Shown one piece after another: positions 14,546 to 64,000 of a stretch of DNA of 64,000 nt; position 1 is the first letter of the stretch, and the number at the start of each line of letters is the position of its first letter. The notes under the pieces are model-generated. The model did no database searches. It saw nothing but the letters and a program-made list of their open reading frames with translations, and was not told where the DNA came from. The stretch is from Ceratodon purpureus. Lineage: Eukaryota > Streptophyta > Bryopsida > Pseudoditrichales > Ditrichaceae. The position numbers were made by a program, and so were the translations under genes. The stretch is taken from assembly GCA_014871385.1 (NCBI GenBank), contig CM026433.1, positions 15,131,985 through 15,195,984 on the forward strand, given 5' to 3'.

Positions 14546-15238
14546 TCAAGAAAACGAAGGGGGCTCCATGTCAACAACTGCTGCAAATCCGAACTGCTTC
14601 GCCAAGCACTGAATCAGCTGCTCGGTGACCTCCTCCACGTCTGGCACAACCGGCGAAACCTCCTTCCGCAGAGACGTCACCTCCTTGTCTCGAATCCCGC
14701 ACGGCACAATGTGATCAAAGTGGGCCAGATTAGGGTCGACGTTGAATGCCAGTCCATGGGAAGTGATGCTCCCAGACGAAACCCGAACCCCAATTGCACC
14801 AATCTTCCGCAACCCCTGGACCCACACGCCCGTCTCCTTCTCCATCCGCCCGCGGGCGTCCACCCCATGCATCTTGCAAACCTCCACCATCACGTCCTCC
14901 AGTCCTTCAACATAAGCCCGCACCCCGACTCGCATCTCGCGTAGCCCGAGGATCGGGTACAGCACGGGCTGCCCCGGGCCATGGTACGTGATGTCGCCGC
15001 CGCGCTCTGTCATGTGGAGTTCGGCTCCGATGGCGTGGAGCTCCTGCGGCGACGCCAACATGTTGTGCACCGTGCGGCGCTTGCCCACTGTGAAGGTGGG
15101 CGGGTGCTGCAACGAGAGCAGCACGTCCGCGCCACCCCGGCGCCGGCGCTCCACGAGCTGGCTCTGTAGATGGAGCGCCTCGGCGTAATTGATCAGCTCG
15201 CGCATCCTCCACACCTCTAGCCTCCGCAACCCCGCCAT
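14546..15238 (-). CDS. LIP2: Mitochondrial octanoyltransferase (LipB/LIP2 family)
   Basis: Intronless frame of 230 residues. LIP2 transfers octanoyl from octanoyl-ACP to lipoyl domains such as the H protein of glycine decarboxylase; LIP1 then inserts sulfur. The LipB signature RGGDITYHGPGQ is at residues 79-90. The catalytic lysine is K145 in GLRKIGAIGVRVSSGSITSH and the catalytic cysteine is C180 in HIVPCGIRDKEVTSLR. Length and collinearity match Arabidopsis LIP2 (about 235 residues). As in that protein there is no long obvious presequence; the basic N-terminus (MAGLRRLEVWRMRELINYAE) may direct mitochondrial import. The first ATG of the frame is used. The 5' two thirds is GC-rich, like the neighbouring eL14 genes. 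Confidence 0.95.
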   Translation of the reverse strand: MAGLRRLEVWRMRELINYAEALHLQSQLVERRRRGGADVLLSLQHPPTFTVGKRRTVHNMLASPQELHAIGAELHMTERGGDITYHGPGQPVLYPILGLREMRVGVRAYVEGLEDVMVEVCKMHGVDARGRMEKETGVWVQGLRKIGAIGVRVSSGSITSHGLAFNVDPNLAHFDHIVPCGIRDKEVTSLRKEVSPVVPDVEEVTEQLIQCLAKQFGFAAVVDMEPPSFS

Positions 15239-39533: not shown

Positions 39534-42500
39534 TTATACTAATTCCTTCCCATCAACTGCCAATCGTATTTGCTGCAGCCTTTCACAAATGGTAGAGAAG
39601 GTGGGCCTTTTCGCCGGGTCTGCAGCCCAACACTCCTCTATCAGACGCCTCAAGCTTATATCTAGATCAGAAGGCAGCGCCGGCCTCAACCCTTCAATGA
39701 CCTTCAACCTTACTACTTCAAGGCCCTCCTCCCTAACATGGTCCTGCATTGGAACTTTTCCTGTGACGACCTCGTAGCATGTCATGGCAAAACTATAGAC
39801 ATCTGCTGCATTCAGGTCGGAAAATCCTACACCTGGCGCATCTTTAATCCCCGGACGCTTCCATGCAGAAACTTCCGGTGCCATCCAGAAACCAGTGCCC
39901 ACGCCTAACCTTGAACGTTTCTTATCAACGAGCTGCGCCACACCAAAGTCGGCGATCTTAACATCCAAGCACCCGAGAAGATCAGGAACCAAGACATTGG
40001 TTGCCTTCAAGTCTCGATGAGCCACGCCCCTTGAATGTAAATATAACATACCGACTGCGATTCTATTACTGATGTGCAAAACTTCATGGATGTCAAAAGG
40101 CCCATCACGGAATAGCAGTGGCCGTAATTGTTCAGCACTCGCCACTGACCCAACTTTGTTCTGTGACCTCCACGAATTCAGGGGACGCTTTAGTTCCTGA
40201 GCACTAATTATCGATCCCACTGTCTTGCTCATTTTGAGCGCCTCACGCGAAGAAGAAACAATTACTGACCCTACTGTCTTCTTCAATTTGCGAGACTCAC
40301 TCAAATAACGAGCCATCACTGATGTCATGTTCAATTTACGCAACTCACTGTGCTGTACCAAATTGTGAACACTCATCACCGCGCCTTCTGTCTTGTTCCA
40401 GGAGTCGAGTGTCTTCACCCCCTCATGAAGTATTGGTTTTGGCTCTGCGTTCCTTATTCGCACTTTCCGCATGCGGTAGCCAATGAGGCATCGCAAATCG
40501 TAACCCATAAGTTCCATCACAATCGAGCACTGACGATCTGTGTGAACTGCCAAGCCAATCAGTTGCACAATACAAGGATGGCGAAGTTTAACCAAGAGAT
40601 TCACTTCTGCCTGCATTTCACTTGGTGAAGAGCTCGGGAATTCCTTCACGGCGAAATTGCAACCTAACCATGTTGCCTCGTAGACCTTCGCAAAGGAGCC
40701 CTCTCCAATGAGGCGCACTTTTTTCAGGCTCGCGGGGTCAACTCTCACAAACTCGGGTAACCTAACGGCATTGGCAGCCCCCGGATCACTGTCCACTTGA
40801 ATTCCGTCATCAACATTGATCTGCCTTAATATGCTTGCCGGCCGAGTAGCATTCATTTCTTCACTATCTGCAAACCGGCCCAAGATCTTCCGATCCCACC
40901 TTATAAGACGCTGCAGTTTTTGGCAAATGCTGGAGAAGGTGGGCCTCTCCTCAGGCTTTCCGCTCCAACACTCCTCGATGAGCAGTTTCAGGTCTGAATT
41001 TAGATCAGAGGGCAGCGTCGGTCGAAGCCCTTCAACCACTTTCAGTCTCAATTCTGAGGGAGTTAACTCCTTGATTTCGTCTTCCAGCGGCACCCCTCCC
41101 GTCACAACCTCGTAGCATGTCATGGCAAAACTATAGACATCTGCTGCCTTCAGGTCGCAGCTCAGTGACTGATGATCTCCAACAGCGTCACTCCCGCCAG
41201 CTGATGGTCGAGGAAAGATTTCAGGTGCCCGCCAGAAGGTAGTGCCCACACCTAGCGAAGGTTTTTGACTCCCGGAAGAATCAATGAGCTGCGACACACC
41301 GAAGTCTGTAATCTTCACATCAATATTAGAGCCAGCTGAATGCTCAGGAACCAGGACATTGTCCGCCTTCAAGTCCCTGTGTATCACATCCCTGGAGTGC
41401 AGATATCTCATACCCAAAGCAATTTTGGTGATGATGAACACAGCTTCACGGAACTCGAAGGGCACCACATCGACTGGCTCTATCTGACCTGACTTCCTTT
41501 TTCGCTTCTGGGAGTCTATTAGGTTTCGCAAACTACAACCCATGAATTCCATCACAATCGAGCACTGACGATCTGAGTGGACTGCTAAGCCCATCAGTCG
41601 CACAATGGAAGGATGACGAAGCTCAACCAAGAACTTCACTTCTCTCTGTAAATCAATCGGTGAGACAGACATGAAAGTCTTCACCGCGTATTTGCAACCT
41701 AACCATGTTGCCTCGTAGACCTTCGCAAAGGTGCCCTCTCCAATGAGGCGCACTTTTTTCAGGTTCGCGGGATCGATTCTCACAAACTCGGGTAACCGAA
41801 CGGCATTGGCAGCCCCCGGATCACTGTCCACTTGGATTCCATCTTCAACATCGATCTGCCCCCATGTGCTTGCAGGAGTAGCATTCTTTTCTTCTCTATC
41901 TGCAATCAGGCTCAAGAACTTCGGAATCCACCTTATAAGACGCTGCACATAATCTTTCCCAGAGGACTTGGTCGTAACGGCAAGCTGTGAAGATCTGGCA
42001 TCGTTCAGCAAGTGGCAGATCACCTCGAACGTTGGCCGTTTGTTTGGGTCACGCTCCCAACAAGATTCTATCAGTCCTCTCAATTTAGGATCCAACTCGT
42101 CAGGCAGTTCCTGCTTGAGATCCCCTTTCTCAATCCGACTCTTCAACTCATCGTCAAATATATCTTGGAAGGGTAGTTTTCCGGTCACGACCTCATAACA
42201 GACCATTCCAAAACCATAGACATCGGTCTTCTTCAACAACTCATGTGTAGGCTCAACCTCACCGTACTTCTGAACCTCAGGTGCAGTCCATCGCGGCCGC
42301 CTCCTCTTACTTCTTTCCCTGAACAACACAGGATCCCAAATTCCAAGTTTCTGGGAGCTTCGGAGGTCAGAAATTTTGACATCAATATAGCCGCCAATCT
42401 GCTTGACGAGAATGTTGGAGCACTTGAGCTCTCCATGCACGTATTGTTGCTCATGCAAGTAATACATGCCTTTCGCTATTTGGGTTATGATATCCAGCTC

Positions 42501-44000
42501 TTGGACCCGTGTGAAGGGGCGTTTTCCTTGAGGTGAGCGCTGATTCATGAAGTGCCGCAGATCAGTATCCATCAGTTCCATCAGGATTAAGCATTGCTTT
42601 TCATCTTGCGCAAACCCCATAAGCTGCACGACATGAGGGTGGTGGAGTTCCATGAGAGAGCAAACCTCTTTCAACAGCTCACTCTTGTTCCAAACCCTAT
42701 CAACAGACTTGAAAATCTTGAGAGCACATTTGCAACCGAGCCAGCTACCATAATGCACAAGGGCCCAACCGTAAGTATCAATATTTGACTCATGCCTGCT
42801 CTTTCTCTCCGGCTCCCATACAGGACCCATAATCTCCACACTGGCGATATCAATCTCTAGGTAGGCTGGCAAGTTACTTAGCTCTTGGATAATTTCCTCC
42901 AACTTACTTTGCTCTTGCAGGATAATTTCCTGCAACCTATTGCGAATATAAGAGAAGGTGGGCCTGCGTTCGGGATTACTATCCCAGCATGACGATATTA
43001 GAGATTTCAATGTTTCCGGACATTCAGAAGGCAGTTTCGGCCTTAAGCCACAACTTGATATCTGCCTCCGAAGTTTAGTCGGGCCCAATTTGGCATCCCA
43101 CATTTGTCCACCAAGAATACATGCGCAAGTCAAAGCGAAGCTATAACTGTCGGCCTTTGTTATCAAGATTTCCGGGCAATCATCGATGTTTGCTGTAATA
43201 GACGCACCTGTATCTGATCCTGTCGGCGATTCTGTCCACAGATAGTCCAAGTCTTCACTGTGAGAACAAAAATAATCTTCAAACAATTCTGGTGCGCTCC
43301 ATTCAATCATCCGAAAGCAGAGAGCGCGCTGCGAAATTAAAGTTGACCTCCTCTTGGTCTCGACGAGACCAAAATCAGCCACCTTCACCAACAACCGACC
43401 TTTCTTTCCAGGAACAATCAAAACGTTGTTTGGCTTCAGATCACCATGGGTGACACCGTTATCATGCAGGTACTCCACACCAACGGCAATCTGCAACGCA
43501 ATGTCCATAGCTTCATGCAGTTGGAATATGGCCAAATTACTAGTACCAACCCCTGGTTGGTTAGCCTTCCCCTTCTGCGCCTCCTTTTTCCTTCGCATGA
43601 TGCTCGAAAGATCATCTCTCACATATTCCATAACGAGAGAACAACTTCTTTTGTCAACTGTCCAACCCAAGGTCTTCACAACATTTGGATGATTACTAAC
43701 TTCAAATAAACGAATAACTTCTCTTTCAAAGATATCACCCTTTACTCCTGGAAAGTCTTTTCGTGCAAGCTTCACAGTGCTATCCTGTGAGCGTGACCAA
43801 GTTGTCTCATAGAATATTCCAGAGCAACCTTGTCCTAAGAAATGTCCTGTTGCCAAATCCTTTGACTTCATTCTGCCCTTGTGGCTAGCACCATCTCGAA
43901 CCCACTGCATCAAATATCCAAGTGAAGACGTCATTGAGTAGTAGAAAATGCCAGAACATTCAACAGGATCCCTGCTCGAAACAACAGTCATATTCTCCAT
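39534..44000 (-). CDS. Four-kinase-domain protein (tandem kinase protein, 1488 residues, single exon)
   Basis: One uninterrupted frame from ATG at 44000. Domain 1 (about 50-360): glycine loop GQGCSG at 56, HGDLKPNN 185-192, DFG 209-211. Domain 2 (about 388-680): no glycine loop, HGELK 522-526 and DLR at 545 in place of DFG, so probably a pseudokinase. Domain 3 (about 745-1075): GEGTFAKVYEATW at 754, HRDLKADN at 874, DFG at 899. Domain 4 (about 1090-1480): GEGSFAKVYEATW at 1099, HRDLKATN at 1328, DFG at 1351, with an insertion of about 130 residues before helix E. Each domain ends with a C..RPTF motif. No signal peptide or membrane helix is seen. The domains resemble TKL-type kinases. Cereal tandem kinase proteins with two or more domains confer rust resistance; a similar immune role here is inference. 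It is transcribed away from the kinase gene at 47021. Confidence 0.92.
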   Translation of the reverse strand: MENMTVVSSRDPVECSGIFYYSMTSSLGYLMQWVRDGASHKGRMKSKDLATGHFLGQGCSGIFYETTWSRSQDSTVKLARKDFPGVKGDIFEREVIRLFEVSNHPNVVKTLGWTVDKRSCSLVMEYVRDDLSSIMRRKKEAQKGKANQPGVGTSNLAIFQLHEAMDIALQIAVGVEYLHDNGVTHGDLKPNNVLIVPGKKGRLLVKVADFGLVETKRRSTLISQRALCFRMIEWSAPELFEDYFCSHSEDLDYLWTESPTGSDTGASITANIDDCPEILITKADSYSFALTCACILGGQMWDAKLGPTKLRRQISSCGLRPKLPSECPETLKSLISSCWDSNPERRPTFSYIRNRLQEIILQEQSKLEEIIQELSNLPAYLEIDIASVEIMGPVWEPERKSRHESNIDTYGWALVHYGSWLGCKCALKIFKSVDRVWNKSELLKEVCSLMELHHPHVVQLMGFAQDEKQCLILMELMDTDLRHFMNQRSPQGKRPFTRVQELDIITQIAKGMYYLHEQQYVHGELKCSNILVKQIGGYIDVKISDLRSSQKLGIWDPVLFRERSKRRRPRWTAPEVQKYGEVEPTHELLKKTDVYGFGMVCYEVVTGKLPFQDIFDDELKSRIEKGDLKQELPDELDPKLRGLIESCWERDPNKRPTFEVICHLLNDARSSQLAVTTKSSGKDYVQRLIRWIPKFLSLIADREEKNATPASTWGQIDVEDGIQVDSDPGAANAVRLPEFVRIDPANLKKVRLIGEGTFAKVYEATWLGCKYAVKTFMSVSPIDLQREVKFLVELRHPSIVRLMGLAVHSDRQCSIVMEFMGCSLRNLIDSQKRKRKSGQIEPVDVVPFEFREAVFIITKIALGMRYLHSRDVIHRDLKADNVLVPEHSAGSNIDVKITDFGVSQLIDSSGSQKPSLGVGTTFWRAPEIFPRPSAGGSDAVGDHQSLSCDLKAADVYSFAMTCYEVVTGGVPLEDEIKELTPSELRLKVVEGLRPTLPSDLNSDLKLLIEECWSGKPEERPTFSSICQKLQRLIRWDRKILGRFADSEEMNATRPASILRQINVDDGIQVDSDPGAANAVRLPEFVRVDPASLKKVRLIGEGSFAKVYEATWLGCNFAVKEFPSSSPSEMQAEVNLLVKLRHPCIVQLIGLAVHTDRQCSIVMELMGYDLRCLIGYRMRKVRIRNAEPKPILHEGVKTLDSWNKTEGAVMSVHNLVQHSELRKLNMTSVMARYLSESRKLKKTVGSVIVSSSREALKMSKTVGSIISAQELKRPLNSWRSQNKVGSVASAEQLRPLLFRDGPFDIHEVLHISNRIAVGMLYLHSRGVAHRDLKATNVLVPDLLGCLDVKIADFGVAQLVDKKRSRLGVGTGFWMAPEVSAWKRPGIKDAPGVGFSDLNAADVYSFAMTCYEVVTGKVPMQDHVREEGLEVVRLKVIEGLRPALPSDLDISLRRLIEECWAADPAKRPTFSTICERLQQIRLAVDGKELV

Positions 44001-47000
44001 TTGAAACCCTCAAAATAGAAGAAAACTGACGCTAAATCCAAGCGACTATGAGTTCCCTTCTCGAGCTGAAAATTACACCATGAGTTATCCAGAGGGAAAG
44101 TCTAGCTTCAAACTGTAAGGAAAGAGCTCAAACAACGGGATTGGTTACAAGAACGGCAGGCCTAGACAAAAAATCTTCAAATGTTAAAATGATGTACGAC
44201 TCACATACGAAGAGCAAACCTAAGCTTTACGGACAACATGATCAATAAACTGAGTGCAACTAGCCATCAAAGTGAGGTAATGCAAGTATAAGTTAAGAGA
44301 TCTTTCAGTGCTCATGAAATCTTTGTAGAGGAACACCTACATAAATTTTTTAAGCTGAAGACACTGTCGGGACATGTTCCTTACTCGTGAGGAAGTTTCA
44401 CTTACCAGGAAGATTTTATAAAATAAGACGACGAAATTGTGAAGGAAACTAAAGAAGTGCACGAACAGAGACAGTGGCCTTCGATCGTCCACTGCCTCTA
44501 CAGCTTCTTCACTCGGATCCATGGCTAGCAGTTAAGGTTTGCTGCAAGGACAACCATAAGAGAAAGCTTCAGAAGATTGGAGCCCATATGCTGCATTTCC
44601 TAGTTTGGCCACTCGCTGGTTCTAGGGTATCCGTGAAACTAGGTGCCATATTCTGATTTGTTACAAGATCACTATACTCGTGACGAGCGTCTGACTCGAT
44701 TCGATTCGCTTCAAGAAAAACAAAAAGTTGCACAAATAGTTCAAACATCTAGAAGAATCAATTTTGCCATGATCAGGGTTCAATAGATAGACATCACCTT
44801 GTTCAACCATATCTACAGGCTGTAAGATGCGAATCGCAGAAGAGTGCAAGAATTCCAACTAAAGAACAGCGGATTAGAATCAACTGCAGTGGATCGATGA
44901 GCTGAGCGAAGACGTGCACTCGAATCGGGGCGTTTGGGGGAGGTGTACAGAAGCTAGCGCGAGAGGGCGCGTTGGCACGGAGAAAGTAGGAAGCTTGGCA
45001 CTCTAGTAATCAAGGCACCTAATTAATAACCGAACTGTTGAACTAACGACCACTGTATCATTGCGCAATCGAGCACAGTGAGATCATCCTCGTGGACTCT
45101 AGCGCACTGTACAGAACAGTAACTCTAAGAACATCTAATTTTATTTGGCACTTGTTGGGGACATGTTAGTCAGTGGAGAAGCTTGGACGACAACTTAAGT
45201 TAGTCCGAGAAGGTTTGCAAGGGGGCAATCGGGCCGGTGAGAGTCACTGTCCTACTCCTTTAGTGTTTTCTAGAGAGCAATATTGCAGTAGAAAACAAAC
45301 TCGGATCATAGAGCCGATGGAGAATTGGAACTCGGTCTATGCAGGATTCAGGAAGACAGTTTGTGCAGCTCAAGTTCATTTTCTACACAAGTATTGTTTA
45401 GCCCTAATTGTTTTGGGGGATCTGATGGTACACAAGTTTAACGGCTCACTGCCTGGAGTTGCTGGTTCACGTGCTCTTTTGTCAGATCTTTGCACTTGGT
45501 TGTTACTTAGGTTCTTCTTCGAAGGAGAGTTGGGGGTTGATGAGACGATTCTATGATGTAGACCATTTCTGTGCAGAAGTTACTGCTTCAAGGGTTCTCC
45601 AGGACTTTCGGCATGCTGGCCCAGTGCCCTGGTAAATCATCAGATCACCACTTGTTGAAATTTGTTTAATCAGGAGTGTGTCGTTTGTAACCATATTTCT
45701 TGTGTACCTAAGTCTGTTCAGAGCTCTAACATTGGTGATCTGCGCTCACCGTGGCACGCAGTGTCCTGTGGTCATGGCCTAGAGCTCCATTAATTAGTCA
45801 GACTGTAAATTTTTGGGTGCAACTTCAAAATTCTACTGTTAAGACTTAATCAAGGGGTGTTATGCAAAAAATTAAGGACGTTCAAAATTACCTTCTCTAA
45901 ATTAATCCCTTTATCTTGGTCAGTCGCCATGGGTACGTGGTTTCTGAGAGGAGCCAGGGCACCGGGGATGATTTGCCATCCTATCTGACCATGATCCAGC
46001 CGTTGTAGAAATCTTCGTTGGATATTTGTGGGTACATTGCTGAAAGTGTTTAACTTAGTTGGTGTTGTAGTTAGCAGTCGTGGCGTTAGTTTATCGGATT
46101 TGAGCGCTTTCGCAATCCGTTGTTGGAGAAATTTCAAGAGAATTTAAGACTGAACTTATTCCCCAGCTGACCGTTACTTTATGACCACTGATGTATTCCT
46201 CCATACCTAGAATTGAGGACGGTGATTTCGAACTTCTTGTCATTCTTTCTCCACCTGAGAAACATGACTTTGAATTTCCCATAGTTATGCTTGGTTAACA
46301 AACTTTTCCAAAGAGCTATGGAACAGTCAAACATGCAAGATCATTCTTGATCTTTGAAGGGCTTACCTAAAATCTTCTGAGCAGAGGGTCAGTGCTCAAC
46401 GAATTTGATGGTGGCTTAATTTTCCTGTGTTGGTAGGATGAACCAAAAGGTCAATTCTGCTTCAGCGTGCAAACTGACGATCCTAACCTTTCTTACTAGC
46501 ATTTTAAAGTTTTAGATGGACTCTTTGCTGACTTTGACGATTGTCTGACACTACGGTGTCAAGATTTCATTCTCTGAAACTACCCACTCCAGATTGATCC
46601 TTTAACAGAACTTTGAAGTTACCAACCTTTAGATATTGTCTGTTTCATTAGTGATCTAAGGATTACCAGTTTGCTACCATAAAACTTGGACTGAGTATTC
46701 TTAGGGCTTCAAATTTCACAGTTTTACATAGTCCTAAATTTCTGATTTGTTACTCACCTCTTTCATAATCGGCATGCAGCTTGCTCTATGTTTCACGCAA
46801 CATCACTCTGAATCTGCGAGGTAGAAGTCGTCGACGCGTGGACCGCAGCTTGAGATTCACGTCGCTGACATTACAAATCCGTAAGTCTCTCGTCTCAGCA
46901 TTTCGGTTTCATTTTGCTCTCTCAATTACTGTGCGACCGCAGCTTGCATTTCTTGAAATATCTCCTCGCCATATTCTAAAGCAATTTTTTTTATCATGCA

Positions 47001-47020
47001 GTAGTCGTCCACTGAAATCG
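44001..47020. promoter_or_regulatory. Divergent intergenic region between the two kinase genes
   Basis: About 3 kb separates the divergent starts at 44000 (minus) and 47021 (plus). No other gene is supported; frames such as 45173-45556 lack family features. A likely 5' UTR intron acceptor (atcatgcag) ends at about 47001, shortly before the plus-strand start, so an untranslated first exon probably lies further left. Confidence 0.45.
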
Positions 47021-49575
47021 ATGGAGTCGATGGACTTGGTAGAGCCTATTCCTCAAGTTTCTGAAGCCATAACAGTTATTGAGGATGTTACCGAGGTTTC
47101 CAGTAAATTTTTGGTTAACAAGCGTCAATGCGAGCGTCTGGCATCTCGCTTTGGTTCCATCGGTGAGAAATTGAATGAGTTGGCAAAAGGATTTGTCTGT
47201 ACCACATCCGCAGATGCAGGCAACCACGCCGTGGAATATCCTGCTTTTGACCTCCTCCTCATAGTTCTGAAGAAAGGGAAGGCTTTGCTGTCAAAATATG
47301 TAGAATCAGAAGCCAGCATCCCTAGTGTGCTAACCCGGACAGAGAACCGAAAGGCATTCGAGGAGATACATGCGGACCTGGACATCATGAATTCGTTGTT
47401 TCACTTTGAGGACTTCGAGCACACCTCAGAAAGCATGAAGATTGTCACATTAACTGAGGATGCTGATAAGGATCTGATGGAGATGACTGATAGTTTGGAC
47501 GAATTGGTACACAGTGAGTCAGGCCGGCATGCGGCAGAAGCAGCAGCTATGTTGCTGAAGAATGTCGAAAATGTGAAGACGGTGCAAGATCCTGTCACAC
47601 TTTCGCAGAGAATGTGCAGGGAGCTTAATGAAAGATTTCCTGAATTTACTGGAAAGCAACTGGAGCTAGTGTTGTATCTCTGCCTCATTGCCTATGGTTC
47701 TGAGATTTACGATGGCGTGTGTGAGGATTCATGGCTGAGAACGATCATCAAGTTGAAGAACCACCTCCCCGAGGAAGACAGAGAAGACGAAGAATTCCAG
47801 GTAATGACTGGAATCTCCAACGTTCCTGTACCATGTCGAGTGTGTTGGAATTGGCTGCAGGAACACGAATATTCTATTGCCATCTCGAAGATCGAAATTC
47901 GCAGTAATATTCTGCCATGCAAAGCCTATCTGAAAAGACTTCGGGAGATACAGGAGTCGAACGTATCTGGAGACAAGAGCGTAGTTCTCGATGCGGAGGA
48001 TGACCACTGCTGCATTAGCAAAAGGGAACTGTATCCCATCACCAGCATCAATCAAGCACGTCTGGAGGCGAGGATCAGGAACGGACGGAAATGTGACCTA
48101 ACAATTCATTTACGACCCAATAGTATCCAGCAGACAGAACGAGTTCCACCGATAGACCCTAGTAATCTTCTGCCTCTCCGGAAGATAGATCGTGATGGTG
48201 TAGTGTCGATGGAGAATGGCAAACTTGGACGAGGCAGTTCAGCTAAAGTTTACAAGGTCACATGGCATAAAGGCACCTACGCCTTGAAATCATATAAGCA
48301 TGGATGGTCTTTCACAGCGAACGAACGCGAGTACATTGAGTCGAAGATTTTGCATCCACACATAGTCCACTGCTTTGGCTATTATCAGGAGGATGAAAAA
48401 TATCGGCTACTCATGGAACTACTAGATAATAATCTGACACGTTATGGAGTCGAGGCCGTGCGAGCGGATTCTCCACTTGTGAAACCGCTCTCGTCACGTG
48501 CGGAGGATATCTTTGATGTGTTACTGCAAATTGCAAGTGCTATGGAACACTTGCATCTCAAAGAGGTGGTACATGGGGATCTGAAGTCCGATAATATTCT
48601 CTTGGATTTCTTCGAGGTCTTAGGAAGTGGACGACATTTCCTTGCCAAAGTGACTGATTTTGGTGACTCCAAAGTCATCGAACCAGGAGTTGCCTTCAGA
48701 CCAGCTGGAGATGGAACCAATAAATATGCAGCACCTGAACTTCTGGATTGGCGAAAAAATCGAGAGGAAATTAGGCTTGATCATCCCAAGAAGATTGACG
48801 TGTATGCTTTCGGTGTCGTTGCTTACATGATACTGACAGGGTATGAGGTCTATCAGGACATTAATGACGCTTTCAAGACGGAATTAGTCATTTCAGGCAC
48901 AATGAAACCAAGTGGATGCAAATCTTGGCGAATCCTGAAATGGAGTATGCGCTTCAAAATATGGTGGGTTTTGGGGCTCAAAGAAAGATTTCCAGATGAG
49001 TTGATGGAACTTGTGGAGAGGTGTTGGGAGTTTCATCCTGCGGACAGACCGGATTTCTCTGAAATTTGTGCTGAACTTGAGAAGTTCAAGTCTCCAAAAC
49101 AAAGCAAGGTGAGCAATCGTTCCTTCTGCTCTTTCATTAGAAGTTTGAGTTTTGATTCGTATGTACAAAACCTTTTGGGACTGTGAAAAATGATGTTGCA
49201 CATTTCGGTAATGTTAACGTGTGGAAAGAAATCTTAGTGAATAGTGCAATCTGGAGGGTATTGAGCACGATTCGACTGTAGCACTACAAGAAGTGATTAG
49301 GAATTCAATCAGGTCGGATCTCCAAAAATTAAGTTGACATACTCATTTTCATCGTCACAATTAGACTGTGAAGCTCATGTTCTCATTATACCAACTTAAA
49401 TGGTTTTATACTACTACCGGACAGGTCAATACCGCGATATCTATCCTAAAGCCCTGACATGCTGTAGCAGGATCATGGAGCGGACGATTGGTCGAAGTTC
49501 ATTGCAGTTATGTTTTTGCTTTCCTTTGTCATCTGTTTTCTTGCTTTCCTTATCAAGGTCGTGCTAAATCTGTAG
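47021..49575 (+). CDS. Tail-anchored kinase with HeLo/DUF1221-like N-terminal domain
   Basis: Exon 1 (47021-49108, ending AAG before GTGAGC) and exon 2 (49471-49575, after GTAGCAG) join in phase 0 to give 730 residues. Residues 1-130 are helical, with VNKRQCERLASRFGSI, then LLLIVLKKGKALL. This resembles the RQC-containing helical N-terminus of plant MLKL-type proteins (Pfam DUF1221). Residues 130-390 are mostly helical. The kinase domain is at about 398-680: LGRGSSAKVYKVTW near 402, ALKSY lysine, HGDLKSDN 518-525, DFG 546-548, KYAAPELL. Exon 2 encodes a hydrophobic segment (FIAVMFLLSFVICFLAFLI) ending KVVLNL, a predicted C-terminal membrane anchor. The ATG at 47021 is chosen because the upstream frame lacks ATG and crosses a splice-acceptor-like site. 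Unspliced, the frame would end at 49186 without the anchor. Confidence 0.82.
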
Positions 49576-51545
49576 ACGCTGTTTATTATCGACCGTCAGA
49601 TTCGTGAGTTTAGAGGCCGTGTGTTTAGTTTAGTTTGTACAGTTTAGCACCCAAAAGAGATGGAGAAATCTATGACAACGAGGTCAAAAACCTTCATCTC
49701 CTGGATTTGTAATGTAGTACAGGTCCTTGAGTTCTTGGTTGCATAAGAGTCGTGGTAAAATGATTTACATGGATTAGTTTCTTCCTCTGTAAATATTTGG
49801 TGATTACTAAGTGTCTCTTTTCATGTTTCAACATATAGTACCTTCATGTTTATCACTCTCAATTAGTTCGTGTTGAAGATCAATAAAATATCTATTCTAT
49901 CAACATCCTATCCTTGTGTAGCATGGGAGGAGTGATCGAGTTATCAGCTTCAAGTTAATTGCAATGAACCTTATCGAATCTCCGGATTTTTTCTAATTAT
50001 CAAGTTCTGTCATTTTTCTTGTTTCGAGTCAGGTGTAGGATTCGTTTCTTTGACTTTGCTGTGAGCTGATACTTATTACAACCGAAACGGTCACGATGGA
50101 TGTAGCTAGTCATACTGGCAATCCATACAAGATAGTATTCCTCAGGAGATTTATATATGATTAGAACTAATTCCCGTGTATTTGTCTTCATGATTAACTG
50201 GTTGGCCTTTGATCTGTTACAAAACTCGTACGTCTACAAAAGTTCCGACTCTTTGATTTCCTTGCTCCATTCAGTTGTAGTCTAGTGTCACCTCCGGGAT
50301 CAATCAGGTTCATCCACGAGGTTCCCTACATTCCCCTAAGCTCCCGGCAACTACTTTATTTATTCCCAATCCCAACTACCAAACGGGATTAAGACATAAC
50401 TACTTATTTAATGTGCAATCTCTTTTACTGCGTAGCCTTTATGTGCTGCAGCTGAACGCTGAAGTATATAAGCTTGGACCACAGACGGTCCAACCTCTTT
50501 TTTACAATTTTCAGCTTTGTCTCTATGTCTCTGTTTACTGTCTCCTAACACAAAGGACCAAAGTTTGTGTTAATGCTCACCTGATAGTCTTTCAAATAGA
50601 CAGGCCGTATCCGCAAATGGAATTCATGACTTGAAACAAGAGCCTCTTGATTCACGTCGGAGTTCTTATGATGCAAACTATCTCTTATGATACACTTGTC
50701 TTTGTCATGCCTCTATAGTTTTACTTGTGAAGTAGGAGTGCTCCAGAGTGTGTGATCTTTTATCAAAGTTTATCGCGGATGATGTAGTGTGGAAAGTTTC
50801 TGACTGCGTTGCTTGTCCATATCTGGGGCCCAATTTTTGCCGCTCCAGTTCACATTGTAGTATGACAGTTGAATTTCAATTCGCTTCATCTGCTTTTCAG
50901 GTCCCCAACAATTGAGAAATAAAGAAAGTATTTGAGAAAAAACAGTAAGCTGAATGCGTGATCCAGGACTCCAGTGTAATACCGTCCATGTCGTAGAAAC
51001 ATTTGTACTCATGTATAATGCAATCCAATTGTACGATGGTGTAGCGGATAAATACAATTCCATTTTACAAGAATTATGTTTCTAATCGACCTTTGAAGCT
51101 GGAATTGAGAAGCACATGTAGTATGTCACAAGTTCCATGATCAGGTTTAGGAATAAAATGCCAGATGCCTGTACAGTATATAATGAAATGCCCTTAACTG
51201 GCTGTGTTCGATGCACACGAAAACGACCAATAAATGGCAATGATCTCTGCTATGTTGAAAACCTTGAAGTTATACACTTTCAAAAAGGGAGAAATTCCCT
51301 TGAAGTATGATACTCATCTCAATAGACTCTTTGACTGGACTTCGATGCATACCACTCTATCTGGGGACTAGACGTCCTTCCAGGTCAGATACCCTTGCAC
51401 ATTGATACTGCACTCTGCTTGTCACAGAACATTTGGCTGCATTACTAGGACACAATTCCTGAGCTTGACCAAAATGCTACATCAATCCAAGTAAAGTAAA
51501 TATCAGACTCGTAGCCCTTTCCACTATTGTCTCAGGAGTAAAGAG
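49576..51545. other. Intergenic region downstream of the tail-anchored kinase
   Basis: Probable 3' UTR followed by sequence without a recognised gene or repeat up to the inverted-repeat element at 51551. Confidence 0.5.
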
Positions 51546-58693: not shown

Positions 58694-61600
58694 TCAAGGA
58701 GGCGCGAAATCTCCTGTGGCCCAGGCCTCAACAGTTCCACATGAAATTGGCAGCTCACCCAGATCCCTCTCCTCCCCCTGCTTCTCATACCCCCAGATCC
58801 TCTCACTTTTCAGCACCTTCCGTCGCTTGACGTCCACCCTGAACTTTGAGTAGCACCTTCCGTCGTTTGACTCACCCACATACACGGGGTTCAACCTTGG
58901 CAAGGAGGCCAGCACGCGCACGTCTTCCTCTCCAAGCTCCACATCGCTGCCGTCCACATGGAGTTCCTCCAGGTTTGTCAGACAACCCAAGTCCGTCAAC
59001 CTCAGATTCCGAAAAACAGGGAGATTTCGTAGGTAAAGACTTCCTAAACCCACCAATTGATCTAACCCTGGAATTCCATCCAAGCTGTCGCAGCCATTCA
59101 CTGTGAGGGTTTCTAGCGTCACCGCTGATGCGCTCAGCCCCTCAAGAGTGCGTAGCCCTTCAACTTCTTCAAGCTCAACGACACGCAGAGATTTGCAATT
59201 TCTCAGATCCAGGCTCTCGGCACGACAGATACGCAGGATTAGCTTACTCAACTTGGTGCAACGGGCAAACACATCCGACCTCAGAGAAACTTTCTCGTCG
59301 ATTTCCAGAACTTGCAGTAACGCTGGCAACTGACACTGCAACCCAAAATATAATTCTTCCTCAAAAAAGAATTGGTCGGCCAAATGTTTCCAACGGAAAT
59401 AGGTGAGCTTGCTCAGGTTTTGAAGACCGTCAAGGCTCAGCTCTCGTTGAAGACCCAAAAGCTCTAAGCTCTCCAGAGCTGAACAATTTCTAACATCCAA
59501 ATTCCCAGCACCACAGTTTCTCAGCTCCAGCTTGGCCAAGTTAGAGCACAAATCAAAAATACCCGAACCCAAGGAAATCTCTTTTCCGTGCAGAATTAGA
59601 ACCTTGAGCGACGCTGGCAGTTTTCCTAAGAACACCTCGATCGAACCCCCTGACCAATCCCACTTGAAATAAACGAGATGTTTCAGGTATTGAAGCCCAT
59701 CAAGCGTATTTTGAGGATAAAAACCGACCAATTCCAAGCTCTTCAAGCACCTAAGGCCCTTCAAGTCCGAATCTCCAATCTGCGCACCAAACGAATCACA
59801 TAGTTTCAATACCACAACATTAGAGAGACTCGACCATTCGATCCCTTCCAGGCTTAATGTACGCTCTTCATTCTCCCAATCATCTACGATACCAACTCGA
59901 GTCAAATTCTGCCAACATCCGCGGGATGGCATCATCTCAAGTAATTCTGTTGGATAAGAGTTTTTATAATACGCCCACTTCCGCTTCTCAAAATGTAAGT
60001 CCTCCAGTTTCCCACTCGCTTCCAGATTTGCAAACTCGCGGAACAGATTCTGCACGTGCACTTGTTGGGCACCCATATCCACAACCTCCACCAGGCTTCT
60101 CCTTTTCAATTGCTGCAGCTACATTCCGCGCAATACAAGCCCGACAAGCATGTTAGGAAGTAGACATTAGGAATGTGTCACTTTTTCTTATAAATGATTT
60201 GTTCCATTACATAGAAGAAAGTCGAACGAAATTAGAAAATACTGCTCACTTGAATTGTGGGACGGTGACCAGGCAAGCGTGATGAAATAGCCTTACCCTG
60301 TTTCCAATTTCTTGTAAACTCTGATTGTGCACAAGAGCAAGCCACTCCACAAGACCAACAGACAGGGGATCTCCATCATCATATAAACCTGAGAATACTA
60401 AACACGAGATTCTCTTTATCTTGTAGATGATTGAAATCGGGCCTCACTTCTTTCAGAGCCTTCACCCACTCAGAAGGTCTTTTATCAAAAGAACCAAGTC
60501 GTGACCCCAGAGCCTTCAAAGCCAGAGGAAGGTAATGACCAATATCGTTCCATTTGTCCTCGCTAAAATAGCTAAGTCGAATACATTCTCTGATGGCCTG
60601 CTTATCATTGTCATTGAGAACTTGATCGCCTGAAGTCGCATAGTACAAGAATAAATTCGTGGCATCCTCTTCTTCAAGGCTCGGCATTGCCAAGCAGTCT
60701 TCTTTTCTCACACCCAAGGATGTGAGTGTTTCTAGACCTCGACTTGTTACAATAACTACACTCTCTTCATGTACTTCTTTGCCCAATTTGAGGTACTTCT
60801 TTGCCTCCTCAAGTGACTTAGAATCTGGGCAAACATTGTCGATAGCCAAAAATATTTTCTGTTTGCATGAATTTTTCAGCAAATTCCAACACTGCAAATA
60901 AAAACCAAAAATAAAGGTTGTAACATACAAATGTAAGAAATGAAAAATATAGATGGTTTTGATACCTAGAAAGTCAAGACTATTCTGGTAAACAAGACAA
61001 TAAGTAATATATTTCCAAGCCTTTCAAGTTTTCCAAAAAATTAAAAATAATATTCTACTCTTAAAATCTAAATATTAATAACATGACATGACCTTAAAAT
61101 AAAACCTTAACAATTAAAAGAATTACTTTTCAACCTCAATAAAGCATGCTGTATACATCAAAGACCAAGTGACAAACTACAAACACTCAAATGCAAAACA
61201 ACAAGTAAAAACAATGTGCTCATTCAAATACCTTTCCTTCATCTAGTCCCTTAACAAAGTCTTGGTCTATATTTGTCAAGTCCTTTAAGACTTTCTTCAA
61301 CAACTCCCAAGAGCTTTTACTCCCTAGTTCAACATGGCTTGACTTCACATCAGACTTTTCGCAGAATTTATTACACAAAAGCTTGCATAAAGTCGTCTTC
61401 CCCATGCCACCAATTCCATAAACTCCAACCACACGGACTCCATATTGCTCTGAAGGTTCTGTACCGGAAATTGCATCTTCAATCACCTTCATCCAAGACA
61501 CAACATATACAAAATTAGCTCTGCTGGCTCAACTTTCCATTGCATACCAGCCTAACAATACGCACGTTTCAGACACAGTCACTCCATGGAACATTATTCA

Positions 61601-62252
61601 AACCATCACCAACAAAAATGAATACCACCAGAGAGCTTATAACCTGACACAGGTTTGAACCCCCTTGAACATGTGAATCATCCCACTTCACATCTGGTGG
61701 AACCTCCTTGCAAATCTGCTTCACGATCTCTTCCCGAAACACCTTGAGATCCGTAGTGCGTGGCTTAAATTCAATACCGTTAAATCTTATTAATTCCCCG
61801 AAGGAAACCTTCCAGCTACTGATATCAATTCCCTTATCATTCTTGGCGAAGACTTCCCACTGCTTGTACCATTTTGATATATTCTCCGGGTTCTCGAGAT
61901 CCTCCAATGAAAGTCCATAGAATAGAGGGACGATCTTTAACATGGTCTCTGACTTTTGCTTCTCTTCCTTTAACCGTCTTTGCACAAAGCCATCAAGCTC
62001 GATCATGGGCCACTCCGACATGAAGAACTCATCGGATACGACGACTACCGCCATTTGACATTGCTGTATAGCGGTGCGGATCAGTTCGGGAAAGCTGTCT
62101 CCCTTAGGTAAGCTTGCAGGACGCTTGTCGAAAAAGGGAAATCGATCATATCTCTCCAAGTCTTCACACAGAATTTCGACGAAATGATCCTTCTGAGCTC
62201 CACTGTGGCTTAGAAAGATCCGGTGCTCGGGTTTTAATATTGGATCATCCAT
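58694..62252 (-). CDS. TIR-NB-ARC-LRR immune receptor gene, probably broken in NB-ARC
   Basis: Minus-strand exons. The TIR exon (62252-61644) starts MDDPILKPEHRIFLSHSG and has FFDKRPASLPKGDSFPELI and SEWPMIELDGF, which includes the candidate catalytic Glu. The P-loop exon (about 61515-61232) has VYGIGGMGKTTL and its donor is in phase 0 with the next exon (60891 onward). That exon has KIFLAIDNV (kinase 2), VVIVTSR and HYLPLALKALGSRLG (GLPL). After ENLVFSILR the frame stops. Coding resumes out of frame as GLYDDGDPLSVGLVEWLA to a GTAAGG donor at 60298, then the LRR exon (60118-58694) with LQQLKRRSLVEV and repeats such as LRNCKSLRVVELEEVEG. Winged-helix and MHD parts are missing at the break. The TIR/P-loop junction could not be phased with confidence. 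Moss TNLs are predicted intracellular immune receptors; this copy may be a pseudogene or need an unrecognised splice. Confidence 0.75.
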
Positions 62253-62345
62253 GCCTCCGTCCGATCTGCTCCAAAGCCATACCATGCAAGCAAAGTAGAT
62301 GCCCGTATCAAGAACAAAGCATGATAACACCCAGGCTGGGATTAA

Positions 62346-64000
62346 ACTGCATCTTCGGAATAAACACCACCATGTATGCATGAATTATTTGAAATGGCAA
62401 TATCACTGAACATTAGAGATTACTTATCTCTCTGCCAAGAAAAGCAACAGCACCAGGATCTCACCTGTATTGTACATCCCTGACCCTCGAGCTTTCAGGG
62501 ATCTGTACGAGCATTGAATCAGATGTACGAACGAACAAAAGAATAAAGTCAGTCAGTTCAATTGCGTTATTCTCAAAAGCTTAAGTGGTCCAGCAGAATC
62601 CAAAAAGTCCAACAATAATTCCGGACTAGGTACTTTAACGTGTAGAAAAACAAACCATTCCAATTTCGAAACCACTTTATTCTCGTTGACATGGTGTTCT
62701 AATACTTAATTTCATCACAATTCAATATAATGTTAGGCAGAATCCTCTTAGACTAGTAATCACTTACGTCACCAGGGCCATCGTCTTCTGGTCCCCGAGG
62801 CCGTTTCATTTCGGGCTGTTGGTCTTCTACGAGTCTGCAAGATTCAGATTCAAGCTTCAAGTTCCAACCGTGCAGCCATTCAGCGTCAAACTCTGGATTG
62901 CAACGCTTAGAGCTGGGCGAGCCCCCACTGGGATCTGGACTTCTACGTAACCTACTTTATCCGCCATGATGTGCTCACGAACCTCATGATATCCCCCATG
63001 ACAATTATGCGAACTCTCACGTAACTTCCAGGAATGGAGATTTTTGGTCGGTCGCATCAAGAAAAACACCCATCACATGCTCTAGAAACCCTAGATGACA
63101 TAAACGCAAAGGAAAATTCCCCGCATCTAAGTGAGCGCTATTCCAAACTTACACAGTCGTCCAATTCTCAAATCATGTCTAACCTTGGCTGAGAAGTGCC
63201 TCGGTTGCCCCATGGGCACTCCCAATCAGCGGGCAGTCAAGCCACCAACACGGCCATTCCCACGCTAACTACTGGGAAATTTGATAGAAAGCACGACTAT
63301 TAGCTTAAAGCATAATTTCTTTTCTATGATGTGGTATACCTGAAGTTGGCAGAAGGACCGGCATCGTCCGGTCTTGAATCTGTTTGAATCTCCTTGGATA
63401 TTTCGAGTTCCTCTATACGGGTAAGAGCACGGAGGGTGCTTTCAAATATCGGTTGTATATAGCCCGACTCCAAAGCCTTTCCCTTTCTCAACACATCAGG
63501 ATCAGGAACAAGGTGAGCTATGTTGCTGCTGTTTGGTTCAAAGGGTTCGGAAATTGGAAAGTTCGGCTCCATCGGTGCCACCAGCTTCAATGAATTATCA
63601 GCTGAAGTAAAAACAGCATAAAACTCTGCTCAACTCAAGTTTGCGACAAACGTTACGCTAGCAAAACTGAGCAGTTTCTATACCATCGAGAATTGGTGAA
63701 AAGCTCGTAAGAGTCCCTCCAGAATGGCATTTTTTAAAATCTATTTGCCACAAGTCCCATATTCATTAAATTAGGTTTAAGACATGCGTATGCTGAAATC
63801 TACAACTGCCCAATCCAAAGGAGCTCCAACTTGGAAACAAGCAATTTGAAGTTGGCGCCTTCGTAGAAAAATATGGGACTAAACAGGGACACGATAATGA
63901 CAAAGAATATGCAAGTTCCAGGCACGTTACACAATGATTCTTGAAATTAACGACTTCATATTCAAATATTGTACCTTTCTCCAACTGCTCCCGTTTCTGC
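62346..64000 (-). CDS. Unidentified exons upstream of the TIR, possibly an N-terminal extension (continues outside window)
   Basis: Four minus-strand exons join in phase. 64000-63975 reads QKREQLEK; 63601-63340 reads ADNSLKLVAPMEPNFPISEP and onward to SANFR; 62834-62768 reads LVEDQQPEMKRPRGPEDDGP and ends GD; 62502-62465 reads IPESSRVRDVQY. All have GT-AG borders. The last ends in phase 2, and the next acceptor (GATGCAG, exon start 62346) restores exactly the TIR frame through a hydrophobic segment (WVLSCFVLDTGIYFACMVWL) before MDDP. This may be one fusion transcript, or a separate gene whose last exon I could not see. The sequence is acidic with a basic patch (MKRPR). No family is recognised. 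Confidence 0.45.

Follow-up and report, generated by a model that had tools for sequence, protein, structure and literature searches.

How a single open reading frame (ORF) in a moss comes to encode four kinase domains, and in what company such a gene stands, is the question raised by the 64,000-nucleotide stretch of Ceratodon purpureus DNA analysed here (the window, C13:15131985-15195984), in which the four-kinase frame occupies positions 39534..44000. Our best explanation, to which we give about an even chance of being right, is that the frame represents a mosaic tandem kinase that belongs to a head-to-head pair of kinase genes, and that the two members of this pair share out the parts of a tandem kinase with a four-helix bundle (4HB) and would act as a sensor/executor couple.

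On the minus strand, positions 44000..39534 form one ORF of 1488 codons from ATG to stop, exactly the frame reported by the first-pass annotation, which gave no strand; frame 1 of the plus strand over the same interval contains many stops. The translation matched the Pfam family PK_Tyr_Ser-Thr with 566.5 bits (E 7.9e-171), which also matched each domain taken singly (K1, 4.9e-27; K2, 1.1e-46; K3, 4.6e-45; K4, 2.4e-41). Four near-complete kinase domains were likewise delimited by a local hidden Markov model (HMM), a result that is partly circular as the model was trained on K1 to K4 together with K5, the kinase of the neighbouring gene described below. Both searches bear out the four consecutive domains proposed earlier. 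K1 (residues 35-359, approximately, as are the following spans; 42924..43898, minus strand, as are the other three) carries an ARK beta-3 motif, HGDLKPNN, DFG and APE. K2 (391-666; 42003..42830) is without a Gly loop and has HGE for HRD and DLR for DFG, K3 (718-1031; 40908..41849) has HRDLKADN and DFG, and K4 (1062-1478; 39567..40817) has HRDLKATN and DFG. All four domains keep the Asn that follows HxD and, as had been claimed, a beta-3 lysine of their own; K1, K3 and K4 possess Lys, Asp, Asn and DFG, the motif GEGxFAKVYEATW occurs in both K3 and K4, and the four APE segments listed in the annotation (WSAPELF, WTAPEVQ, FWRAPEI and FWMAPEV) are all present. By their HxD/DFG motifs (HGD/DFG, HGE/DLR, HRD/DFG and HRD/DFG), K1 is classified as an intact non-RD (lacking the Arg-Asp pair) kinase, K2 as a pseudokinase, and K3 and K4 as RD kinases, which is the order that the annotation had given. 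Tandem kinase proteins (TKPs) are defined by at least two kinase domains, of which this open frame holds four, and by a mix of intact kinase and pseudokinase, which it also has as judged by sequence. About 34 ORF residues precede K1, and no match to MLKL_N was found in the 1488-residue frame at E 0.01; neither NB-ARC nor LRR matched at E 0.01 in this frame or in the partner encoded at 47021-49186.

The assembly that contains the window (362 Mb, 151 contigs) was searched in six frames without introns, and only the best candidates were scored, so that all counts are minimum values and any four-kinase gene interrupted by introns would escape. Among the 45 matches to the whole protein, the window frame alone spans all four domains, and the next-longest frame has 974 amino acids. 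Within the fetched loci that were read, four kinase domains occur in the window gene only and the other frames hold two at most (the frames at C10:5941337, of 1049 amino acids, and C13:6876295, of 1007, were left out of this domain reading). Two domains per frame were found at 11 further distinct loci, the second being partial in L012 and L015. Neither four-kinase moss proteins nor head-to-head kinase pairs appeared in the literature searched (titles and abstract openings). The distinct architecture proposed earlier stands to the extent that this is the sole four-kinase frame among those read; its stand-alone character does not, the frame being a fusion within a recurrent gene pair.

Comparison with its relatives indicates that the frame is a mosaic, in which a K1-type gene appears fused to the kinase portion of a gene of the 4HB-pseudokinase-kinase type. 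K1 is a member of a single-kinase family: the frames of L009, L010, L017, L018 and L020 have one kinase domain each, and the closest to K1 among the matches listed are the single-kinase frames C12:5812772 (59%) and C13:3219670 (51%). The K1-type frame of L020 (C13:3197076-3198638) additionally shows a weak C2H2 zinc-finger match before its kinase (E 0.0048, below the cut-off). The K2-linker-K3 block (40911..42824, minus strand) is 97.7% identical, over 1914 bp and without gaps, to C13:15207571-15209484 in L002, a locus about 31 kb from the window gene that encodes 863 amino acids from its ATG in the order MLKL-like 4HB, pseudokinase, kinase. This order is common to the aligned paralogues L003 to L008 and L012, the second kinase of L012 being without most of its N-lobe, and L013 has diverged further, showing DFG in its first kinase. 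The counterpart of K2 reads HGE or HEE in seven of the nine aligned paralogues and HGD in L008 and L013. A further locus, L011/L015 (C3:6819362-6821914), has a 4HB and two kinases broken by one in-frame TGA.

At the joint between K1 and K2 there is no stop, and the linker of about 30 residues keeps the sequence that precedes K2 in the family (NLPAYLEID; DLPSYLTID in L002). Both observations argue against the possibility that two separate genes lie here, K1 having its own transcript, K2 to K4 another, and the common frame being incidental; the single kinase domain of the K1 relatives read would suit that arrangement, which we consider very improbable.

The sequences nearest to K4 are K3 of the window gene and K3 of L002. 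At the DNA level the 5' part of K4 (linker and N-lobe) is 84% identical to K3 and the C-lobe 67%, with synonymous divergence (dS) of 0.23 and 1.23, respectively, values that do not fit a collapse of identical tandem copies in the assembly. K4 would accordingly be read as an older K3 paralogue, itself mosaic and more K3-like in its 5' part. Before helix E it carries an insert of about 110 residues with VGS-type repeats (40113..40439, minus strand; of low model confidence), in which KTVGSV..., KTVGSI... and NKVGSV... form a loose tandem repeat and the body of which was covered by no listed genome protein match of the K4 query. That the insert stems from a retained intron is disfavoured by codon preference, in which the ORF frame is the best of six, and also by G+C (0.476 vs 0.495 in the flanks). 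The K4 model, built from five window sequences, had a mean predicted local distance difference test score (pLDDT) of 65.0, with most of the core at about 70-95 and values below 50 in the insert, residues 292-307 and residues 320-331; kinases were its best Foldseek matches. No relics of K4 were found downstream of L002, where the matches within about 11.5 kb were the neighbouring K5- and K1-type kinases.

The remaining half of the donor gene appears to lie in the divergent neighbour. The plus strand at 47021..49186 encodes a partner of 721 amino acids composed of an MLKL-like 4HB, a K5-family N-terminal region and K5, a non-RD kinase (HGD). Its 4HB segment (47021..47584, plus strand) has 92% protein identity to that of L002, whereas the remainder, N-terminal region included, matches K5-type genes. 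The DNA ahead of it (46023..47020, plus strand) is homologous to the DNA upstream of L002, with 894 of 977 aligned bases identical when gap columns are excluded (86% over 945 columns by BLAST for 46023-46913). As read from these alignments, the donor has been divided, its pseudokinase-kinase half standing after K1 and its 4HB half, with upstream DNA, opening the K5 gene. The dS to L002 was 0.050 for K2-K3 and 0.077 for the 4HB (Fisher p 0.26 for the difference, on rounded counts), and this similarity suits one event. The partner gene and L002 account for most of the four-kinase architecture.

A split by one inversion would presuppose a K1/K5 tandem, and such a tandem was seen once, in the order opposite to that needed (C12:5810617 and C12:5812772). 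That one inversion fits the usual pair order poorly counts against the explanation we prefer. Just beyond the window end, L021 (C13:15196177-15204128) is a second divergent pair, K1 on the minus and K5 on the plus strand, after which come the same downstream flank and, beyond it, the donor gene L002. In the window this flank of the K5 gene lies at 50745..51529 (plus strand), and matches to it elsewhere lie solely next to the adjacent K1/K5 pair and L002 (C13:15205228-15207219); a dispersed repeat is unsupported, this second K1/K5 neighbourhood being the sole match.

Pairs of this kind recur in the genome. The K1-type genes considered were the window gene and 19 loci hand-picked from at least 203 matches, part of which were listed, and the K5-type genes were 19, hand-picked from 59 matches. 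A K5-type gene was present within 12 kb for 16 of the 20 K1-type genes, on five contigs, and 15 of these 16 close pairs were divergent, the remaining one being the tandem arrangement on C12. The fragment C9:8062992 (46%), which has no listed K5-type gene nearby, was excluded, and its inclusion gives 16 of 21; C7:11033834 was kept as K5-type for its family-like N-terminus despite a weaker score, and dropping it leaves 14 of 15 divergent. For the four K1-type genes that lack a nearby partner, a K5-type gene lies 30-34 kb off in two cases, again in divergent orientation, and 2.45 Mb off in one; the contig of the fourth has none. The catalytic loops of the listed K1 and K5 frames read HGD, but HCD in L021 and L043. 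Divergent pairing of a K1-type with a K5-type gene is thus repeated in the genome, with non-RD loops in the members read. The pairs L017 (C13:3183 kb) and L018 (C13:1946 kb), in opposite orientation and about 1.2 Mb apart, are 100% identical in K1 and 99% in K5, near-identity that points to a recent copy of the whole pair.

With the tandem pair counted in, the K1 and K5 identity matrices of the 16 pairs were correlated (r 0.82), and none of 5000 permutations reached as high a value. Several considerations weigh against taking these figures at face value. Agreement of nearest neighbours is limited to 9 of the 16 pairs. The binomial value for the divergence bias (1.1e-8) is overstated, since the pairs share descent and the lists were hand-picked, and the pairing counts and the matrix correlation are themselves too strong because of the hand-picked lists and the non-independence of the pairs.

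The mosaic might also be a young chimera, non-functional or barely used, that arose as an accidental fusion by unequal exchange and gene conversion and has an open frame because it is recent. The dS of just 0.05 between K2-K3 and L002 is in keeping with this, and so are internal stops in some relatives (2 of the 45 listed whole-protein matches). Between the window and L002, K2-K3 shows a dN/dS (ratio of nonsynonymous to synonymous divergence) of 0.31 (Fisher p 0.0002). When changes were polarised with L003, however, the window branch had two synonymous and six nonsynonymous codon changes, which is about neutral and tells against our explanation, and the L002 branch had six and three, with 22 changes unpolarised; because of the ratio on the window branch, the constraint on K2-K3 is not assignable to the fused copy. 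On the other hand, K1 and K4 are far older, as judged by the distance of K1 from its nearest listed paralogue and the dS of the C-terminal part of K4, and their frames and catalytic residues are intact, while the codon preference of the K4 insert is higher in the ORF frame than in the other five. On balance we regard a young chimera as unlikely, while still the most serious of the competing accounts.

All nine 4HB members matched the Pfam family MLKL_N under a threshold of E 1 (best 1.5e-11), and a profile search of the PDB from the nine 4HBs placed MLKL entries first (best 4btf, E 1.2e-4); with E up to 10, seven of the ten listed sequences were named MLKL and two were pilus proteins (E 0.33 and 0.87). 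The sequence order of MLKL proteins, a 4HB followed by a kinase, is found in the partner at 47021-49186 and in the L002 family. The assignment has several points against it: the window 4HB scores 24.8 bits (E 1.7e-5), below the curated Pfam cut-off of 27; the TAL effector 3ugm (E 8.1e-4) ranks among the MLKL matches; the Arabidopsis entries 6lba and 6ka4 were not listed in the 4HB search of the PDB (E up to 10); and the single-sequence model of the 4HB was of unusably low quality (pLDDT 40.6). In searches of the PDB with the kinase domains, an EGFR entry was on top, and 6lba and 6ka4, which we take to be AtMLKL2 and AtMLKL3, stood high, behind or among animal kinases.

A 5' coding exon is also probable for the four-kinase gene, since L010, a K1 paralogue, and the window show like exon ends in the same donor phase. 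The kinase frame of L010 has no ATG before the P-loop, and its upstream hydrophobic exon ends LLLLCIFL|GTAAGTG; the window counterpart ends FVVLFYKIFL|GTAAGTG. The candidate exon (44406..44522, minus strand; 39 codons, phase 0) would encode the hydrophobic sequence LSLFVHFFSFLHNFVVLFY, and codon preference favours its frame. The candidate intron (43905..44405, minus strand; GTAAGTG ... GATGCAG) would take out 32 codons at the start of the ORF, and in-phase splicing to CAG|TGG at 43905/43904 predicts a protein of 1495 amino acids whose N-terminal part has a hydrophobic stretch (mean Kyte-Doolittle value of 1.67 across 19 residues). Against this model, the in-frame acceptor differs from that expected from L010, in which CAG|GAACCA lies farther from the kinase and the equivalent window site is out of phase. 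Translation might also begin at ATG44000, since the first 32 codons, with a codon-preference score near zero, nevertheless score best in the ORF frame. Of the earlier label 'single-exon', the uninterrupted frame holds, and that this is the sole exon is doubtful.

On the explanation we prefer, the K1-K4 chain and the 4HB-K5 partner would form a sensor/executor couple, a proposal that is based on the published behaviour of plant TKPs and MLKL. The chain, perhaps held at the membrane through the hydrophobic 5' exon, would expose pseudokinase K2 to a pathogen protein, either as bait or as a regulatory clamp; a change at K2 would be relayed to the RD kinases K3 and K4, which would phosphorylate the partner, and the 4HB of the partner might then disturb membranes and cause cell death, by analogy with MLKL and plant 4HB proteins. 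The donor family carries these parts in a single chain. We count two further observations in favour of this explanation. L012 (C10:16175586-16178507) has a 4HB-kinase-kinase frame with an added C-terminal Myb/SANT-like domain (Pfam E 3.8e-9) that resembles an integrated domain, and the window itself holds TIR, weak NB-ARC and LRR-like frames. A single-gene receptor without context was dropped because of the donor halves and the recurrent pairs found. More tentatively, and with clearly lower confidence, head-to-head non-RD kinase pairs may constitute a class of plant immune receptors, the kinase-only analogue of paired nucleotide-binding leucine-rich-repeat receptors (NLRs), of which the present pair would be a case where a one-chain necroptosis-like device has been split, with the pseudokinase-kinase in one protein and the membrane-killing bundle in the other.

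The TIR, NB-ARC and LRR matches lie in this order at 58697-62381 on the minus strand (TIR_2, E 1.1e-11; NB-ARC, E 0.002; LRR_EndoS, 4.7e-5; the last two under the cut-off), probably as parts of an intron-broken TIR-NB-LRR gene some 10 kb away from the two kinase genes. They also bear on the idea that the four-kinase protein is a stand-alone receptor of the wheat TKP type, working with a helper NLR, perhaps this very gene, while the K5 gene would be irrelevant. The kinase-pseudokinase make-up of the frame, the presence of the frames at 58.7-62.4 kb and the dependence of the TKPs Sr62 and RWT4 on a helper NLR, described in PMC12830362 together with effector binding by tandem kinases, agree with it. 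K1/K5 pairing on five contigs with correlated divergence does not, and nothing links the TIR gene to the pair; we judge this idea rather improbable. Elsewhere in the window, 14549-15238 (minus strand) is a frame with a lipoyl ligase A/B catalytic domain (Pfam E 2.4e-41).

Tandem kinases and MLKL-like proteins are both tied to plant immunity, the cases in the sources consulted here being from cereals and Arabidopsis. In the 4HB-pseudokinase-kinase family the two kinds are joined, and the divergent pair appears to have split one such protein. If the pair works together, linked two-gene sensor/executor receptors could be built from kinases alone, and the donor, the split pair and the unfused pairs would offer natural parts for the control of a 4HB death domain by pseudokinase and kinase.

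Among known systems, TKPs (Yr15/WTK1, Rpg1, Sr62, Pm24, Pm36/WTK7-TM) resemble the window gene in having at least two kinase domains per frame, kinase plus pseudokinase, and in their origin by fusion and duplication, as proposed in PMC11153570. They differ in having two domains rather than four and no head-to-head kinase partner, and the window relatives are of MLKL type, whereas Sr62, Rpg1, Pm24, Sr60 and Yr15 are assigned to the DLSV, CR4L, WAK and RLCK-VIII subfamilies, a comparison by description from PMC8956640. Klymiuk 2018 gives 92 TKPs, with one Physcomitrella sequence among those selected (PMC6170490). Like plant MLKLs and Pm13 (MLKL_NTD-kinase), the partner and the donor family bear an MLKL-like 4HB before a kinase, and HeLo/4HB domains cause cell death according to PMC10951266. 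Unlike them, the donor family has both a pseudokinase and a kinase behind the 4HB, and the four-kinase ORF has no 4HB; Pm13 is described in the same source with one kinase domain. Bryophyte kinase-NLRs (Pkn-NLRs), as described in PMC11218826, are likewise bryophyte immune-type genes with kinase domains, and are set apart by that description, the window pair having no attached NB-ARC. The pair context of the window gene and its 4HB donor are of more interest than the domain number of four. Head-to-head NLR pairs with integrated domains include RPS4/RRS1 and RGA4/RGA5. With these the window pair shares a divergent arrangement kept through duplication and extra domains in a member, and it differs in consisting of kinases only, with no NB-ARC match in either member; by analogy, it resembles a kinase-built counterpart of the immune receptor pairs that flowering plants have.

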